A stretch of 9,831 bases of DNA from a bacterium (lineage in GTDB: Bacteria > ARS69). The DNA is taken from the NCBI GenBank assembly GCA_025774865.1, contig JALGZO010000296.1, positions 1 to 9,831 on the forward strand, written 5' to 3'. The stretch's first letter is position 1. Every line of letters starts with the position of its first letter. The position numbers and the translations under genes were made by a program. Shown piece after piece: positions 3,291-9,831 of this stretch. A model generated the notes under the pieces. It was not told the DNA's origin. It did no database searches and saw nothing but the letters and a program-made list of their open reading frames with translations.

Positions 3291-5060
3291 TCATGATGTG
3301 ACCTTTTCCGCTTGAGGCTTTCTCTCCGGCGTGACGTGCAGCTTCTCGGGGAGACGCACCACGAAGGTCGCCCCGCCGCCCGGCGTGCTCTCCACATCGA
3401 GCCGCGCTCCGTGGTCCTCGACGATCTTCCGAGCGATCGCGAGGCCAAGCCCGCTCCCCCCCTCTTTGCTCCCCGTCACGAAGGGGTCGAAGAGGCGATC
3501 GCCGAGCTCCGGCGGGATTCCCGGCCCCTCGTCCGCAACCTCGATCCGGATGTCGCTTTCCTCCCAGCGCGACCATCGGAAGGTGATCGTGTCACCAACG
3601 CTGGAAACCTCGCGGGCGTTGTTCACGATGTTGTCGATCACTCTCCGCATGCGCTCGGGGTCGAACATGACCTGCATTCCGCGCGGGCCCTGCAGGGCGA
3701 GCTTCACGCCGGCCCGCCGGAGCGGCTCCGCGTGACTGGCGGCGATCTCCTCCAACCAGGTCGCGAGGTCGATCGTCTCGACGTCGAGCACCGAGTGCCC
3801 TTTCGCATACTCGAGGACGTCGCGCGCGAGCGCCGTCATTCGGTCGACCTGCCGGTTGATCACTCGGCACTGCTTCGCGAGCTTCTCGTTCTCCGGATCG
3901 CGGCTTTCGATGCGGTCGGCGGTCCCCCGCACGATGGCCACGGGATTCTTGAAGTCGTGAACGATCCCGGTTGCGATGCGGCCGAGGGCGGCGAGCCTCT
4001 CCACGTCGAGCTTGTCGCGCTGAGCCTTCTCCAGCTCGCGACGATTCTGCTCGAGGCGTGAGCGCATTTCCTCCACCTTTCCGGCGAGGTGCCCGAGCTC
4101 GTCGTCGGATCGCGATCGAATCGTGAATCCCAGGTCGCCCTGCCCGATCCTCTCCGCGTAATGCACGAGCTGCTGAACCTGCCGGCTCACGCGCGCCCTC
4201 GTGAAGAGCCACACGACGAGAACCGCGACGATGCTGCCGGCGACGGCGAGGACCAGGAGGAGCACCCGCACGCGGTTCATGACCGGCGCGATCGGTTCGT
4301 CGATGGACGCCAGGAAGATCACGGACATGCCCGACACCGGGTCTTCGACGCGGGACGCGAGGAACGTCGTGTCTTCGACTTCGACCCGGGTGACGCGACC
4401 GGCCTCGAGCTCGATCGCGGAAGAGCCGGCTTCGACGCCCTCGGGCGAGCTTCCCGAGACGACTCGGCCTCCGAGTCCGAGCACGACGTCGAAGCCGGTG
4501 AGGCGCTTCAGATCCTCGCCGTACGCGGCGGCGAGGCTTCTTCCGGAAACGACCGTGCCGAGGACCCGGCCATTGTTCGCGGTGACCTTCGCCTGGACGA
4601 GCTCGTAGATCTGACCGTTCCACTCGACGTTCTCGACTTCGGTCGCGTCGATGGCCTCGCGCGCCCGTTCGATCGCGATGGCCTCGAGCTCCGCCGGCAA
4701 CCCTTCCGTCGAGAACAGATGCGCGTCGTCGGCGGCCCATATGACGATGAAACCCGAATCCACGAGCGAGCCGTGGGTCGGGACCTCGGCTTCCACGGTC
4801 GCGGGGTCTCCGGTCTCCAGCGCCGCCAGGAGCCGGGGTGACGTCAGCGCCGTCTCGAGCTGGCTCACCCGAGCGAGGTGATTCACTCGCGTGTACTGGC
4901 GAAGGACATCCTCGGCCTGGACGAGGCGCTGTCGGAAGAGATCCTCGAGACCGGTCCGCGTTACGTGATTGGTGATCAGAAAAGACCCAGCCGACACGAT
5001 GGCCGTGAGACCGACGCTGAAGAGAGTGTACTGACGGACAAGAGAGCGGTGGATGGTCAC
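3291..5060 (-). CDS. Membrane sensor histidine kinase (Cache-like sensor, HAMP, HisKA, HATPase)
   Basis: A 589-residue two-component sensor kinase. The first membrane helix is at about residues 12-31. An extracytoplasmic sensor domain of roughly 230 residues follows (about 32-262); its pattern (GFIVIWAADDAHLFSTEG, then GRVLGTVVSGRSL, then TGFDVVLGLGGRVV) resembles double-Cache sensors. The second helix is at about 264-286, the HAMP linker at about 287-340 and a charged coiled coil at about 335-357. The phosphoacceptor His is H368 in GIVHDFKNP. The ATP-binding domain has the N box DNIVNNARE (476-484), G1 DEGPGIP (510-516), F box LFDPFVTG (523-530) and G2 GSGLGLAIA (535-543). All catalytic boxes look intact. 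The start is GTG at 5060, which shares GTGA with the stop of the small upstream ORF and has GAGGT 3 bases before it. No response regulator lies in the window, so the partner must be elsewhere. The ligand is unknown. Confidence 0.95.
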   Translation of the reverse strand: MTIHRSLVRQYTLFSVGLTAIVSAGSFLITNHVTRTGLEDLFRQRLVQAEDVLRQYTRVNHLARVSQLETALTSPRLLAALETGDPATVEAEVPTHGSLVDSGFIVIWAADDAHLFSTEGLPAELEAIAIERAREAIDATEVENVEWNGQIYELVQAKVTANNGRVLGTVVSGRSLAAAYGEDLKRLTGFDVVLGLGGRVVSGSSPEGVEAGSSAIELEAGRVTRVEVEDTTFLASRVEDPVSGMSVIFLASIDEPIAPVMNRVRVLLLVLAVAGSIVAVLVVWLFTRARVSRQVQQLVHYAERIGQGDLGFTIRSRSDDELGHLAGKVEEMRSRLEQNRRELEKAQRDKLDVERLAALGRIATGIVHDFKNPVAIVRGTADRIESRDPENEKLAKQCRVINRQVDRMTALARDVLEYAKGHSVLDVETIDLATWLEEIAASHAEPLRRAGVKLALQGPRGMQVMFDPERMRRVIDNIVNNAREVSSVGDTITFRWSRWEESDIRIEVADEGPGIPPELGDRLFDPFVTGSKEGGSGLGLAIARKIVEDHGARLDVESTPGGGATFVVRLPEKLHVTPERKPQAEKVTS

Positions 5061-5200: not shown

Positions 5201-5284
5201 GGAGACCTCCCGCCGTTTGTATCGGGGAGCTTCCGCACCGGGTTGACGCTCGCGTGCCGTTGCCGAAACTCGGTTCTCGCGAAA
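5183..5284. repeat. 11-bp inverted repeat, arms 5183-5193 and 5274-5284
   Basis: TTTCGCGAGAA at 5183-5193 is the exact reverse complement of TTCTCGCGAAA at 5274-5284, with 80 bases between the arms. Beyond a single extra A at 5182, the arms also share the flanking bases CCG. Each arm contains the self-complementary core TCGCGA. One arm covers codons 3-6 of the small ORF; the other lies upstream of its ribosome site. It could be a pair of sites for a dimeric repressor, with DNA looping, or a long-range RNA stem in the leftward mRNA leader. The match is direct observation; the role is inferred. Confidence 0.45.
5206..5211 (-). promoter_or_regulatory. Shine-Dalgarno of the 47-aa ORF
   Basis: GGGAGG on the minus strand with a 5-base spacer (TCTCC) to the ATG at 5200. 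It is among the strongest ribosome-site matches in the window and is the main reason for calling the small ORF. It would lie in the loop if the 11-bp repeat arms at 5183-5193 and 5274-5284 paired in the leftward transcript. Confidence 0.55.
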
Positions 5285-5301
5285 CCGTCGTGGTTTTGGC
5301 A

Positions 5302-5315
5302 GATTCCGGGGAATC
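5302..5315. promoter_or_regulatory. Palindromic operator-like site GATTCC-GG-GGAATC
   Basis: Two perfect 6-base half-sites (GATTCC and GGAATC) are separated by 2 bases, between the divergent genes and 29 bases before the glycosyltransferase start codon. The size and symmetry suit a dimeric regulator. The loop is too short for an RNA hairpin terminator and no T-run follows. The regulator is not identified; the sensor kinase's unknown response regulator is one candidate by position only. Confidence 0.35.
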
Positions 5316-5335
5316 CTTGCCGTCACTCGCAGACC

Positions 5336-5340
5336 GAGGA
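5336..5340 (+). promoter_or_regulatory. Shine-Dalgarno deciding the glycosyltransferase start
   Basis: GAGGA lies 4 bases before the GTG at 5345. The reading frame is open upstream to a TTG at 5243, but the extra 34 residues are Cys/Arg/Trp-rich and unlike the family N-terminus. This site therefore fixes the start at 5345. Confidence 0.6.
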
Positions 5341-5344
5341 ATCA

Positions 5345-6760
5345 GTGAAGCGGCTTCTCCCCTGGACAGTTCTGCTGGTCGCGCTCGGCCTGCGGGCGTG
5401 GCGGCTCGACTTCGAGAGCCTCTGGTTCGACGAGGTCGCGAGCATCCGCGAAGCGGACCTGCCGATTCGCGAAATCCTCGGCCGCTTCTACTGGCCGCCG
5501 GTCTACTCGCTGATCATGAAACCGCTGGCGGGCTCGGCCGCGAGCGAGGTCTGGCTTCGGCTGCCGGCCGCGCTCCTCGGGGCGATCACCGTCTTCGCTT
5601 TCCATCGCTCGGTCTCGCGTGAGACTCCCGAGTGGATCGCGGCGGGCACCGCACTCCTGTTGGCGACATCGGCGTTCCACGTGGAGCTCAGCCAGCAGGT
5701 GCGGCACTACACACTCGGGATCTTCGCGCTCTGGCTATGCCACCTGGCGTACCGCCGGCTGCTCGCGAGCCGCGACTCTTCCTGGCGGCGCGGCCTTCTC
5801 TGGGCCGGGAGCGCCGCCTTCGCCTACTTGTCGATCTTCCTGGCGCTGCCGCTTCTCGCCGTCCAGGTCGCGTACGGTTTCGTGCGGCTGCGCGGAACGC
5901 CGCGGCGCCGGTTCGGGGCCGTGGTGGCCGTCCTCGGCGTGGCCCTGTCGCCGTGGTTGATCGGGTCGCTCGCGCAGGCCGACCGCGTGCCCAACCAGCT
6001 CCGCTACGCCGGAGGCCACCTCGAAGGACTGGCGGACGCGCTCACGAAGACGTACTTCGGGTACCTGCCGGTACCGGAGTGGGCAGCCGCGGCGGGTCTT
6101 CTGGCCCTCGGCGCCGTGCTGTTCGGCGGGCTGCTGCGGGAGCGTGTGCACTTCCCGGCGGTCCCGTTCTTCTCGTACTTCGGTCTCCTGTTCGGTCTCG
6201 CGCTCCTGACGGCGATCGTCTCCGATCCCTATCCGCGCTACTTCACGCTGACACTACCGTTCTTCTTCGCGTTGCTCGCGCGAAGCTTGATGAACTTTCC
6301 GCCGCGCTTCGCGGCCGCGATCCTTGCGGTGCTCCTCGCGATCTCGGTCGCGGAGACGACGAATCAGCTGCGGGGGCGCCAGCATCCCGACTGGCGGTCG
6401 GTCGCCGCGCGGCTCGCCGAGCCCGACTTTCCCGTCTGCACGCTCGTGTTCGGGATGCCGAACATGGAGCGTAGCGTCCTCTACTACCTCGAGCGCGATC
6501 ATCCCGAGGTCGACGTGAGCGTTCACGCCCTCGAGGGTGGTTACACGCTGGACGAAGCGGGCGCGCGAAAGATCGAGCGGGAGATCAACGACATCGCCGC
6601 TGAGCGCGACTGCCTGGTTTACGTGCAGGGCTTCGAGTGGTTCTCCGACCCGCAGCGGATGGTTCTCCAGTACCTGATGTTCCGCTACCCCTGGTCGGTG
6701 GAGGTCTCGGAGTTTCCCGCCGCCGCCGCGTTCCGGCTGACGAATCCGGCCGAAGACTGA
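5345..6760 (+). CDS. GT39/PMT_2-like membrane glycosyltransferase
   Basis: A 471-residue polytopic membrane protein of the GT-C superfamily (ArnT / protein-mannosyltransferase-like, PMT_2 type). These enzymes transfer a sugar from a polyprenyl-phosphate carrier to lipid, protein or glycan on the outer side of the inner membrane. After the first helix (about 5-18) comes SLWFDEVASI (25-34), with the catalytic-type acidic pair D29-E30. PPVYS (51-55), LRLPAALLG (71-79) and QQVRHYTLGIFAL (117-129) are usual for the family. About ten further hydrophobic segments run to about 335, with YPRYFTLTLP (296-305) in the loop before the last helices. HPDWRSVAARL (347-357) opens a soluble tail of about 125 residues. 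The start is GTG at 5345 with GAGGA before it. The gene is divergent from the kinase unit and, with the YfhO-like gene, is one of two GT-C proteins in the window. Donor and acceptor cannot be read from sequence. Confidence 0.87.
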   Translation: MKRLLPWTVLLVALGLRAWRLDFESLWFDEVASIREADLPIREILGRFYWPPVYSLIMKPLAGSAASEVWLRLPAALLGAITVFAFHRSVSRETPEWIAAGTALLLATSAFHVELSQQVRHYTLGIFALWLCHLAYRRLLASRDSSWRRGLLWAGSAAFAYLSIFLALPLLAVQVAYGFVRLRGTPRRRFGAVVAVLGVALSPWLIGSLAQADRVPNQLRYAGGHLEGLADALTKTYFGYLPVPEWAAAAGLLALGAVLFGGLLRERVHFPAVPFFSYFGLLFGLALLTAIVSDPYPRYFTLTLPFFFALLARSLMNFPPRFAAAILAVLLAISVAETTNQLRGRQHPDWRSVAARLAEPDFPVCTLVFGMPNMERSVLYYLERDHPEVDVSVHALEGGYTLDEAGARKIEREINDIAAERDCLVYVQGFEWFSDPQRMVLQYLMFRYPWSVEVSEFPAAAAFRLTNPAED

Positions 6761-7003: not shown

Positions 7004-8260
7004 CTAGGTCTTCTGCGGCTTCTTCTTCGCGGCCGGAAACAGGATGTTGTTGAGGATCAACCGGTAGCCCGCGGAGTTCGGGTGCCGGTTCAGATCGGTC
7101 GGCGGGTCACCGACGGCGTGCTGGTAGTCCTCGGGATCGTGGCCACCGAAAAACGTCCAGGTCCCCCGACCGAGCTTGCCGTGGACGTACTTGGCCTCTT
7201 GCGTGCCGTCGACCTCGGCGAGGATCGTGACGCCCGACTTGATGAGGCGCTTGTCGAACCCGGTGGTCTGACCCAGAAACCCGTTCACCACTCCCACGTG
7301 GCACTGGGTGAGCATCGTCGGAATCGGATCGTACTTCGCGGAGAATTCGAACAGCGTGAAGTAGTCGGCCATGGCACCGCGCGCCATCGCGTAGTTCGAC
7401 GTGTCGAGGTCCGAGAACTCGTAGACCATGGGGTCCGTGATGAGTCTGAAGTCGGTGAACGCGAGACACCGGTCGTAGTCGAGGCGGTTCTGGCAATCCG
7501 GGTCCGGGGGATCACCGTCGTACACGGTGCCGCAGATGTCGACCCCGCGCGCGGCCAGCGCGATGTCGAACGTGTCCGTCGCCGAACACATTGCGAAAAG
7601 AAAGCCTCCGCTCCTGATGTACTCCTTCACGACCTCGACGACGGCGCTCTTGTGCTTCGAGACTTTGCGAAATCCGGCCTCTCGTGCGAGCTTCTCGTAG
7701 AGTGCCTGCTGGCGCTGGTACCAGCCGGCCGAGTGGAAGTTCCCGTAGAACTTCCCGTACTGCCCCGTGAAATCCTCATGGTGCAGGTGCAGCCAGTCGT
7801 ATTCGCTCAGTCCGCCAGCGAGAACTTGCTCGTCCCACACGGTGTCGTAGGGAATCTCCGCGTAGGTGAGGGCCAGCGTGACGGCGTCGTCCCACGGCTG
7901 CTTGTCGGGCGGCGTGTAGATCGCGACGCGCGGCGGCTTCTCGAGAAGCACCGCCTCCATGTTTTCCTCTTCGATGACGCTCCGGATCGCAACCTCCTCT
8001 CCCGAGGACACGGTCTCGGTGGTCACGCGCATCAGGATGGCGCGGCGACGGAGGAAGTCCGCTTCCTCCAGCAGGAACGCGCCTCCCCGGTAGTTCAGGA
8101 GCCACTCGACGTTGGCGCCCTGCGAGAGACACCAGTACGCGAAGCCGTACGCCTTGAGGTGGTCTTCCTGAGCGAGGTCCATGGGCACGAGGATCTTGCT
8201 CCGGGCGACGCCGGGAAGAAGCACGAGAGCCGCGGCGATTCCGGCGATCCACATCCTCAT
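7004..8260 (-). CDS. Exported conserved protein, possible class I amidotransferase-like fold
   Basis: A 418-residue protein with an N-terminal signal peptide (hydrophobic core about residues 4-19, probable cleavage near 19-22). The mature part starts KILVPMDLAQEDHLKAYG and has WLLNYRGGAFLL (53-64), HLHHEDFTGQYGKFY (158-172), GGFLFAMCSATDT (218-230), and near the C-terminus FFGGHDPEDYQHAVGDPP (370-387) and NSAGYRLILNNILFP (395-409). I recall similar proteins in Bacteroidota genomes labelled 'asparagine synthetase B', but no asparagine-synthetase domain architecture is visible and the label should not be relied on. C225 after a beta-strand-like stretch looks like a nucleophile elbow, and H374 with E377 could complete a Cys-His-acid set as in class I glutamine-amidotransferase-like folds; this is inference. 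The ATG overlaps the TPR gene's stop (ATGA), with AGAGGG upstream, so the two are co-translated. Probably periplasmic; substrate unknown. Confidence 0.9.
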   Translation of the reverse strand: MRMWIAGIAAALVLLPGVARSKILVPMDLAQEDHLKAYGFAYWCLSQGANVEWLLNYRGGAFLLEEADFLRRRAILMRVTTETVSSGEEVAIRSVIEEENMEAVLLEKPPRVAIYTPPDKQPWDDAVTLALTYAEIPYDTVWDEQVLAGGLSEYDWLHLHHEDFTGQYGKFYGNFHSAGWYQRQQALYEKLAREAGFRKVSKHKSAVVEVVKEYIRSGGFLFAMCSATDTFDIALAARGVDICGTVYDGDPPDPDCQNRLDYDRCLAFTDFRLITDPMVYEFSDLDTSNYAMARGAMADYFTLFEFSAKYDPIPTMLTQCHVGVVNGFLGQTTGFDKRLIKSGVTILAEVDGTQEAKYVHGKLGRGTWTFFGGHDPEDYQHAVGDPPTDLNRHPNSAGYRLILNNILFPAAKKKPQKT

Positions 8261-9831
8261 GGCAACGCCCTCTGCAGATCGGCGGTCAGGTCGCGAGCCC
8301 GGTCCGCGGCGAGAGTCTCCGGGTAGGTGACGAGGAGCTCCTCATACTCGGCGAGCGCCGCCCCCGGATTGTGCAGGTCCTCGTGCAGGATCTGCGCGCG
8401 AAGGAGCCTCGCGGCGGCCGCGAGGTCCATGACCTGGGCCTCCGTCACGGCGCGGTCCAGGACGTCCAGCGCCCGGGCGGGATTGCCGGCTTCACGGTGC
8501 GCCCGCCCCAGAAGGAGCAGCGACTCGTCTACGATGTACGCGCGCGGGTGATCGTCGGTCAGCGACACCAGTGTCGCGACGGCTTCGTGGGGCGCGGCCG
8601 TCCGGAGATTTTGCCGCGCGTCCGCGTACCGGGCGAGCACCTCTTCGGGATCGGAGTTCGTGTTGATCAGGATCGAGAACTCGAGCGCGTTGTTGACGTG
8701 GAGACCCTTGGGATGACGGTTGGCGACTTCCTTGAAGAGGCTGTCCGCCGCCGGAAACTGATGCAGATAGAAGAGCGTGCGCGCCTCCTCGTACAGCGCC
8801 CGTTCGCGCGTATCGTCCGAGAACTTCCGTCCCTGGATGGCGCCGTAGATCCCGCGCGCCATCTCCAGATCGCCGCGCCACACCGCACACTCGGCGACCT
8901 CGAACTGCGGGTCGGCCTCGCCCCACGGCCCCGGACCGCGGCTGATGAGCTCGCGGAACACCTCTTCGGCGGCGTCCGGATCCCGCTTCCCCTCGCGCAG
9001 GATGCGGCCCGTCTCGAACCGGGCCGTGTGCGCATGATCCGTCTCGGGATAGCCTCCGGCCAGCCGAGCGTAAGTGCCAAGGGCGTCTTCCCAGCGCCCG
9101 AGCTCCGACTGACTCGTCGCGATTTCCAGCAACGCGCTCGGCACGGCTCTCGCGCTCGGGAAGTCGCTGACGATCCGCTCGAAGACGCGAATCGCGACCT
9201 CGTGGTTGCCGTCCGTCTGGCACCGCTTCCCGAACACGAGGAGCGCTCCGAACTGGCTCGGCTCGTCGTCCACCAGCCGGAAGTACTGCAACCTGGCCTG
9301 CTCGTGGTTGCCGGCCTCCAGGTAGAGATCACCGAGCAACTTGCGAAACACGACGGCCTCCGAGAGCGGTCGCCTTTCCGCGTCTCCCGACACGGGCGGT
9401 TGGTGCGAGACGTAGCGGTTCATCCACGCCTCGACCCGCGAGATGACGGGACCGAGCCCCTCTTCGTTCTCGCCGATGCGAAGGAGGCGCCCTTCCACGT
9501 ACGACAACGCGGTGGGCGACTCCTGAAGGAAGCGAAGGTACTCGTTTGTCGCTTCGTCGAACTCGAAACGAAGCTCGTGCAACGCTGCCTTCTGCCGCGT
9601 GAACCGGCCCGGGTGCACCGAGTCGGCTTCGGCGTAGACCGCGAGGGCTTCGTCGAACATCCGGTTGCGGGCGAGCAGGTCCGCGACGAAGGCATACGAT
9701 CCTCGCGTACCGTCCTGCACGTCGAGGATCTGCCTCCACCACCGAAGCGCGGCGTCGCGGTCTCCCTTCCGCGCCGAAGCCGTGCCCAGCTCCTCGAGGG
9801 TACCGGGGTGGCGTGGGTGTCGCGCGAGCTC
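8257..9831 (-). CDS. Tetratricopeptide-repeat protein (N-terminus outside window)
   Basis: The C-terminal 524 residues of a TPR protein; the frame is open to the right window edge. The GTG at 9720 is internal, because the codons beyond it encode another repeat (LEELGTASARKGDRDAALRWW). TPR-like helix pairs continue throughout, for example FVADLLARNRMFDEALAVY (about 48-66), LLGDLYLEAGNHEQARLQYF, ALLEIATSQSELGRWEDALG, and a last set LLLLGRAHREAGNPARALDVL plus RLLRAQILHEDLHNPGAALAEYEELL. The repeats are somewhat degenerate and end in an Arg/Asp-rich tail (RARDLTADLQRALP). Such proteins are scaffolds for protein-protein contacts. It is probably periplasmic or membrane-anchored given its partner, but the signal region is not visible. 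It is coupled by ATGA to the exported protein gene downstream, suggesting a shared complex. Confidence 0.92.
   Translation of the reverse strand, partial: ELARHPRHPGTLEELGTASARKGDRDAALRWWRQILDVQDGTRGSYAFVADLLARNRMFDEALAVYAEADSVHPGRFTRQKAALHELRFEFDEATNEYLRFLQESPTALSYVEGRLLRIGENEEGLGPVISRVEAWMNRYVSHQPPVSGDAERRPLSEAVVFRKLLGDLYLEAGNHEQARLQYFRLVDDEPSQFGALLVFGKRCQTDGNHEVAIRVFERIVSDFPSARAVPSALLEIATSQSELGRWEDALGTYARLAGGYPETDHAHTARFETGRILREGKRDPDAAEEVFRELISRGPGPWGEADPQFEVAECAVWRGDLEMARGIYGAIQGRKFSDDTRERALYEEARTLFYLHQFPAADSLFKEVANRHPKGLHVNNALEFSILINTNSDPEEVLARYADARQNLRTAAPHEAVATLVSLTDDHPRAYIVDESLLLLGRAHREAGNPARALDVLDRAVTEAQVMDLAAAARLLRAQILHEDLHNPGAALAEYEELLVTYPETLAADRARDLTADLQRALP

Follow-up and report, generated by a model that had tools for sequence, protein, structure and literature searches.

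The window, a stretch of 9,831 nucleotides that makes up positions 1 to 9,831 of contig JALGZO010000296.1 (assembly GCA_025774865.1, GTDB lineage ARS69), encodes on its minus strand a 418-aa protein for which a high-confidence model predicts, over residues 108-414, the fold of the class I glutamine amidotransferases (GATases). The protein belongs to an unnamed, strongly conserved and usually single-copy family whose members occur across the FCB group (Bacteroidota and related phyla). We lean towards the view that the protein acts as an exported cysteine hydrolase or acyl/amide transferase.

Gene structure and export

The earlier note had placed a gene for an exported protein at 7004-8260, and we confirmed this assignment: the open reading frame runs on the minus strand from an ATG at 8260 to a TAG at 7006-7004 and specifies 418 aa. 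The residue numbers that had been given for six cysteines (C44, C225, C243, C256, C265 and C320), for H374 and E377, and for the HLHHEDF segment at 158-164 were likewise all correct when checked on the translation. Whole-genome searches recovered full-length homologues at 49-81% identity that were free of stops, indicating that the gene is real.

A signal peptide had also been proposed, and the claim is plausible. The peptide would span residues 1-21 (8198..8260, on the minus strand like every other part of the gene), with cleavage approximately before KILVPMD, and a hydrophobic segment was found ahead of the conserved mature start in 91 of the 92 orthologues with a readable N-terminus, as judged by a crude hydropathy test and not by SignalP. 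On these sequence features the protein is probably exported and located in the periplasm. Its mature part would begin with an alpha/beta domain (residues 22-107, 7940..8197), which was delineated from the alignment and from an AlphaFold2 (AF2) model and carries the conserved motifs MD..Q..HLKAYG and WLLNYRGG; this is followed by the GATase-like domain (residues 108-414, 7019..7939) and by a conserved C-terminal tail (residues 412-418, 7007..7027) that ends in K-T. Among the alignment rows that reach the C-terminal end, T418 was present in 95/95 and K417 in 94/95. The DUF4159 proteins, whose genes often lie in the same cluster, have a fairly conserved C-terminal end too, YALT[QH]; fixed free C-termini are unusual.

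Distribution of the family

The 418-aa protein had no match in Pfam, in NCBIfam or among the PDB sequences. When contigs of GTDB genomes were scanned with the family alignment, at least 588 stretches matched, and the best 80 of these matches came mostly from the Bacteroidota, Ignavibacteriota, Kapabacteria, Chlorobiota, Cloacimonadota, Fidelibacterota (Marinimicrobia), KSB1, Calditrichota, Zixibacteria, Eisenbacteria, Krumholzibacteriota, Latescibacterota, Electryoneota and Gemmatimonadota. The gene was present in 33/39 and 5/5 genomes of two other sampled phyla, and its copy number was almost always one. When phylum labels were placed on the tree, 16 changes were needed for 13 groups, compared to a minimum possible of 12 and to 36.9 for shuffled labels; the sequences are thus largely grouped by phylum, which suggests that the family has descended mainly vertically. 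No homologue was found in the plasmid collection. One genome (G080) holds a partial second copy (contig C46:62311-62424, plus strand) that spans family positions 370-407, the final 38, and is interrupted by one TGA; it is situated downstream of the intact gene, at a distance of about 1.3 kb, and looks like a decayed duplication.

Gene neighbourhood

The ATG of the gene overlaps the stop codon of an upstream gene for a TPR protein by 4 bp (ATGA, 8260-8257). This TPR gene (8257..9831, minus strand) is itself cut at its 5′ end by the contig. Of 70 loci, 26 had a TPR gene as the immediate upstream neighbour, with a gap of at most 30 nt or an overlap in 21 of these, and 12 had DUF4159, DUF4175 and TPR genes all upstream. 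In several phyla these genes form a cluster in the order DUF4159 - DUF4175 - (TMEM260-like/TPR) - TPR - target gene, with the target last, and two genomes of the window's own family show the same order with the TMEM260-like/TPR gene in place. In the window genome, the DUF4159, DUF4175 and TMEM260-like genes were located on a separate contig (G000:C676), which ends within the TMEM260-like/TPR gene, and the window contig ends within the TPR gene. Since both contigs end inside cluster genes, the cluster of this genome has likely been split by an assembly break. The association of DUF4159, DUF4175 and TPR genes with the target gene points to an envelope module. In Bacteroidota such as Pedobacter the target gene lies apart from the TPR and DUF4175 genes, and in several Bacteroidota it follows a gene that resembles, by sequence, the replicative helicase DnaB.

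Several other genes were noted in these regions. The window encodes a sensor histidine kinase with HAMP, HisKA and HATPase_c domains (3291-5060, minus strand), and a PAS/HAMP histidine kinase is found upstream of DUF4159 in a related genome (L099, 9677-12808). A membrane protein of the window (5243-6760, plus strand) has a weak match to the PMT_2 glycosyltransferases, just below the Pfam cut-off. A second TMEM260-like relative, at 34% identity, lies upstream of DUF4159 in the window genome (L154, on G000:C676, 7574-8983, minus strand).

Conserved residues

Conservation was assessed in an alignment of 97 sequences of the family. Invariant in all 97 rows were C225, the candidate nucleophile (7586..7588, in the context GGFLFAMCSATD); H158, H160, H161 and D163, which form a second conserved His/Asp cluster (H158-L-H160-H161-E-D163, 7772..7789); Q319 and H321; and H374, D375, P376, E377 and D378, a segment that would supply a base and an acid (H374-D-P-E377-D378, 7127..7141). 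M224, W123-D124-D125 and H381 each deviated in at most one row. C225, H374 and E377, which the earlier note had singled out as a possible Cys-His-acid site, and H158, H160, H161 and D163 of HLHHEDF, which it had viewed as a possible second site, are thus constant throughout the alignment. Its further suggestion, that six cysteines in an exported protein might form disulfides, did not hold: at each of C44, C243, C256, C265 and C320 many orthologues carry another residue, position 320 being N in 50 of the 97 rows, and with only one invariant Cys and five variable ones there is no conserved disulfide.

The H-D-P-E motif was found in all 97 rows, whereas H-P-E was invariant in an alignment of 22 true GATases. 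Because the motif of the exported family is one residue longer, any one of D375, E377 and D378 could act as the acid.

Predicted fold and comparison with known families

AlphaFold2 returned a model with a pLDDT of 79 from a 16-sequence alignment, and one with a pLDDT of 91 and a pTM of 0.90 from a 96-sequence alignment. When the latter was compared with PDB chains by VIA-align, residues ~108-414 matched the class I GATase-like fold with Z of ~10.5-13 over 173-230 residues, and the 16-sequence model gave the same fold picture; these results bear out the amidotransferase- or ThuA-like fold that had been anticipated from the sequence. The matches included the ThuA-like protein 1t0b (Z 12.4 over 194 residues, 3.4 Å), the GATase1-like protein 3rht (Z 12.1), the GATase domain of ADC synthase (8hx9, Z 11.8 over 193 residues), PabA-type GATase domains and PdxT, as well as the PH GATase 2d7j (Z 10.6), of whose 188-residue chain 182 residues were aligned. 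Given this extent of alignment, the GATase strand that bears the Cys and the hairpin that bears the His-Glu pair would both fall inside the superposed core.

In the model, C225 is the residue that links strand 220-224 to helix 226-236, which, together with its constancy in the alignment, upholds the view that its surroundings resemble a nucleophile elbow. The HHED loop comes directly after strand 156-159, the third of the GATase-like domain, and H374 follows the hairpin of strands 355-363 and 366-371 and precedes the last helix (397-410). We take this placement of C225, HHED and H374 along the strands and helices to be that of the class I GATase topology, and from it a Cys-His-acid triad geometry may be expected at C225 and H374.

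At the level of sequence, PF00117 was not among the Pfam families matched by 96 members at E <= 1, and hhalign found nothing against the GATase profile (probability 0.4%) or the ThuA profile. Similarly, the ThuA model of Pfam (PF06283) had no match in the 96 members and none in the window genome, which holds the target gene. Against DUF4159, hhalign gave a weak match of 16 residues over GGFLFA (E 1.9e-4, probability 47%) that is suggestive only. The Pfam scan of the 96 members at E <= 1 yielded, amid chance hits, sub-threshold matches to BPL_N in 7 and to DUF4159 in 4, both of which we take to be GATase-like families; the DUF4159 cut-off (PF13709, 25.9 bits) was not reached in any of these 4/96 members, whose E values were 0.1 or worse, and ten members scanned singly against Pfam gave chance hits only. 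Since all profile matches are weak or sub-threshold, we claim membership of the fold but not of a sequence family.

With the class I GATase domains (PF00117: PabA, GuaA-N, PurQ and PdxT) the exported protein has nearly the whole domain fold in common, along with a Cys at the strand-helix turn and a His and an acid after the last hairpin; it differs from them in being exported, in its extra N-terminal domain of ~85 residues (22-107), in having H-D-P-E for H-P-E, and in lacking both sequence similarity and a synthase partner domain. The ThuA-like proteins (PF06283; 1t0b, 4jqs and 4e5v) share the fold (Z 11-12.4) and a G-H motif near the C-terminus that is followed by the last helix, but no profile similarity was detected by hhalign. 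The homoserine O-succinyl/acetyltransferases (MetA; 7cbe, 6mtg, 2ghr and 2vdj), which have a Cys-His-Glu acyl transfer centre, also share the fold (Z 11-12 by VIA-align), but they are cytosolic and have a different sequence and different motifs. DUF4159 proteins (PF13709), of which we found no mention in the literature searched, are exported, frequently have their gene in the cluster of the target gene and contain the GGFLFA segment; however, they are shorter, are encoded by a separate gene, have DD in place of MC after the GGFLFA strand, and lack the HHED and HDPED motifs. The identities of MetA, of GH42 and of IFT52 were considered for the exported protein and rejected, the resemblance found by VIA-align being at the level of the fold only.

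Discussion

If the exported protein is a cysteine hydrolase or transferase, C225 would be its nucleophile and would attack an envelope substrate at an acyl or amide group, while H374, together with D375, E377 or D378, would provide the base and the acid that activate C225. In the same cleft, the HxHHxD loop may bind the substrate or a metal. The TPR protein could scaffold the enzyme, and DUF4159, in which Asp-Asp takes the place of the Cys, may be a partner of similar fold that is not itself catalytic. Some observations count against this reading: the motif is H-D-P-E and not H-P-E, there is no profile similarity to GATases or ThuA, and we know of no catalytic Cys in several of the best fold matches, such as the ThuA-like proteins and the GH42 middle domains.

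The main alternative, which we regard as unlikely but which retains some weight, is a non-catalytic binding or scaffold protein, in which the GATase-like fold would bind a sugar, a peptide or a partner protein, as GH42 middle domains do, and the invariant residues would serve binding and structure. Many of the best structural matches in the VIA-align comparison are indeed binding or accessory domains (the GH42 middle domain 5xb7, Z 13.0; the levan utilisome chain 8aa2_G, Z 12.6; 1t0b, Z 12.4; and the N-domain of IFT52, 5fmr, Z 10.6), and the neighbouring genes encode TPR proteins and other uncharacterised envelope proteins. On the other hand, a lone invariant Cys at the nucleophile position, combined with an invariant His-acid motif while the other cysteines vary, is what catalysis predicts, and the corresponding segment of DUF4159, which is encoded in the same cluster, carries Asp-Asp.

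A metal-dependent hydrolase, in which the HxHHxD loop, H374, H321 and the acids would bind Zn or Fe and C225 would be a metal ligand or a structural residue, appears distinctly less probable. Such a site would be consistent with the conservation of H158, H160, H161, D163, H321, H374, H381, D375, E377 and D378, and with the AF2 model, which places C225 as well as HHED where core strands end, but the structural matches are cysteine GATase-like or binding domains and not metallohydrolases. Finally, a true asparagine synthetase B (AsnB) or glutamine-dependent amidotransferase, as would follow from a reported database label and from the GATase-like fold common to class I glutaminases, can be dismissed with near certainty, since AsnB combines a class II (Ntn) glutaminase with an ATP-dependent synthetase and we found nothing in common with it: neither domain was matched in any of the 96 members (Pfam, NCBIfam), for which reason the identity was rejected and the label would be wrong, the fold is class I-like with no synthetase domain, and export would take the protein away from the cytosolic pools of ATP and glutamine. 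An 'asparagine synthetase B' is lowered in an mliR mutant of Bizionia argentinensis (PMC9478572) and could be a member of the exported 418-aa family, although it cannot be tied to it.

Returning to the exported cysteine enzyme, we propose, tentatively and as a possibility that may well not hold, that it is part of an undescribed FCB-wide envelope system. In this system, two GATase-like proteins, one active (the 418-aa family) and one inactive (DUF4159), would act with periplasmic TPR scaffolds and a large DUF4175 protein to make acyl or amide modifications to components of the cell envelope, and the C-terminal K-T end of the 418-aa protein would be recognised by a partner.

The family represents a near-universal and conserved exported protein of a whole superphylum for which neither Pfam nor NCBIfam holds a family model. 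The candidate residues C225, H374 and HxHHxD, together with the gene partners, make its function testable by mutation in culturable Bacteroidota, for example Pedobacter.
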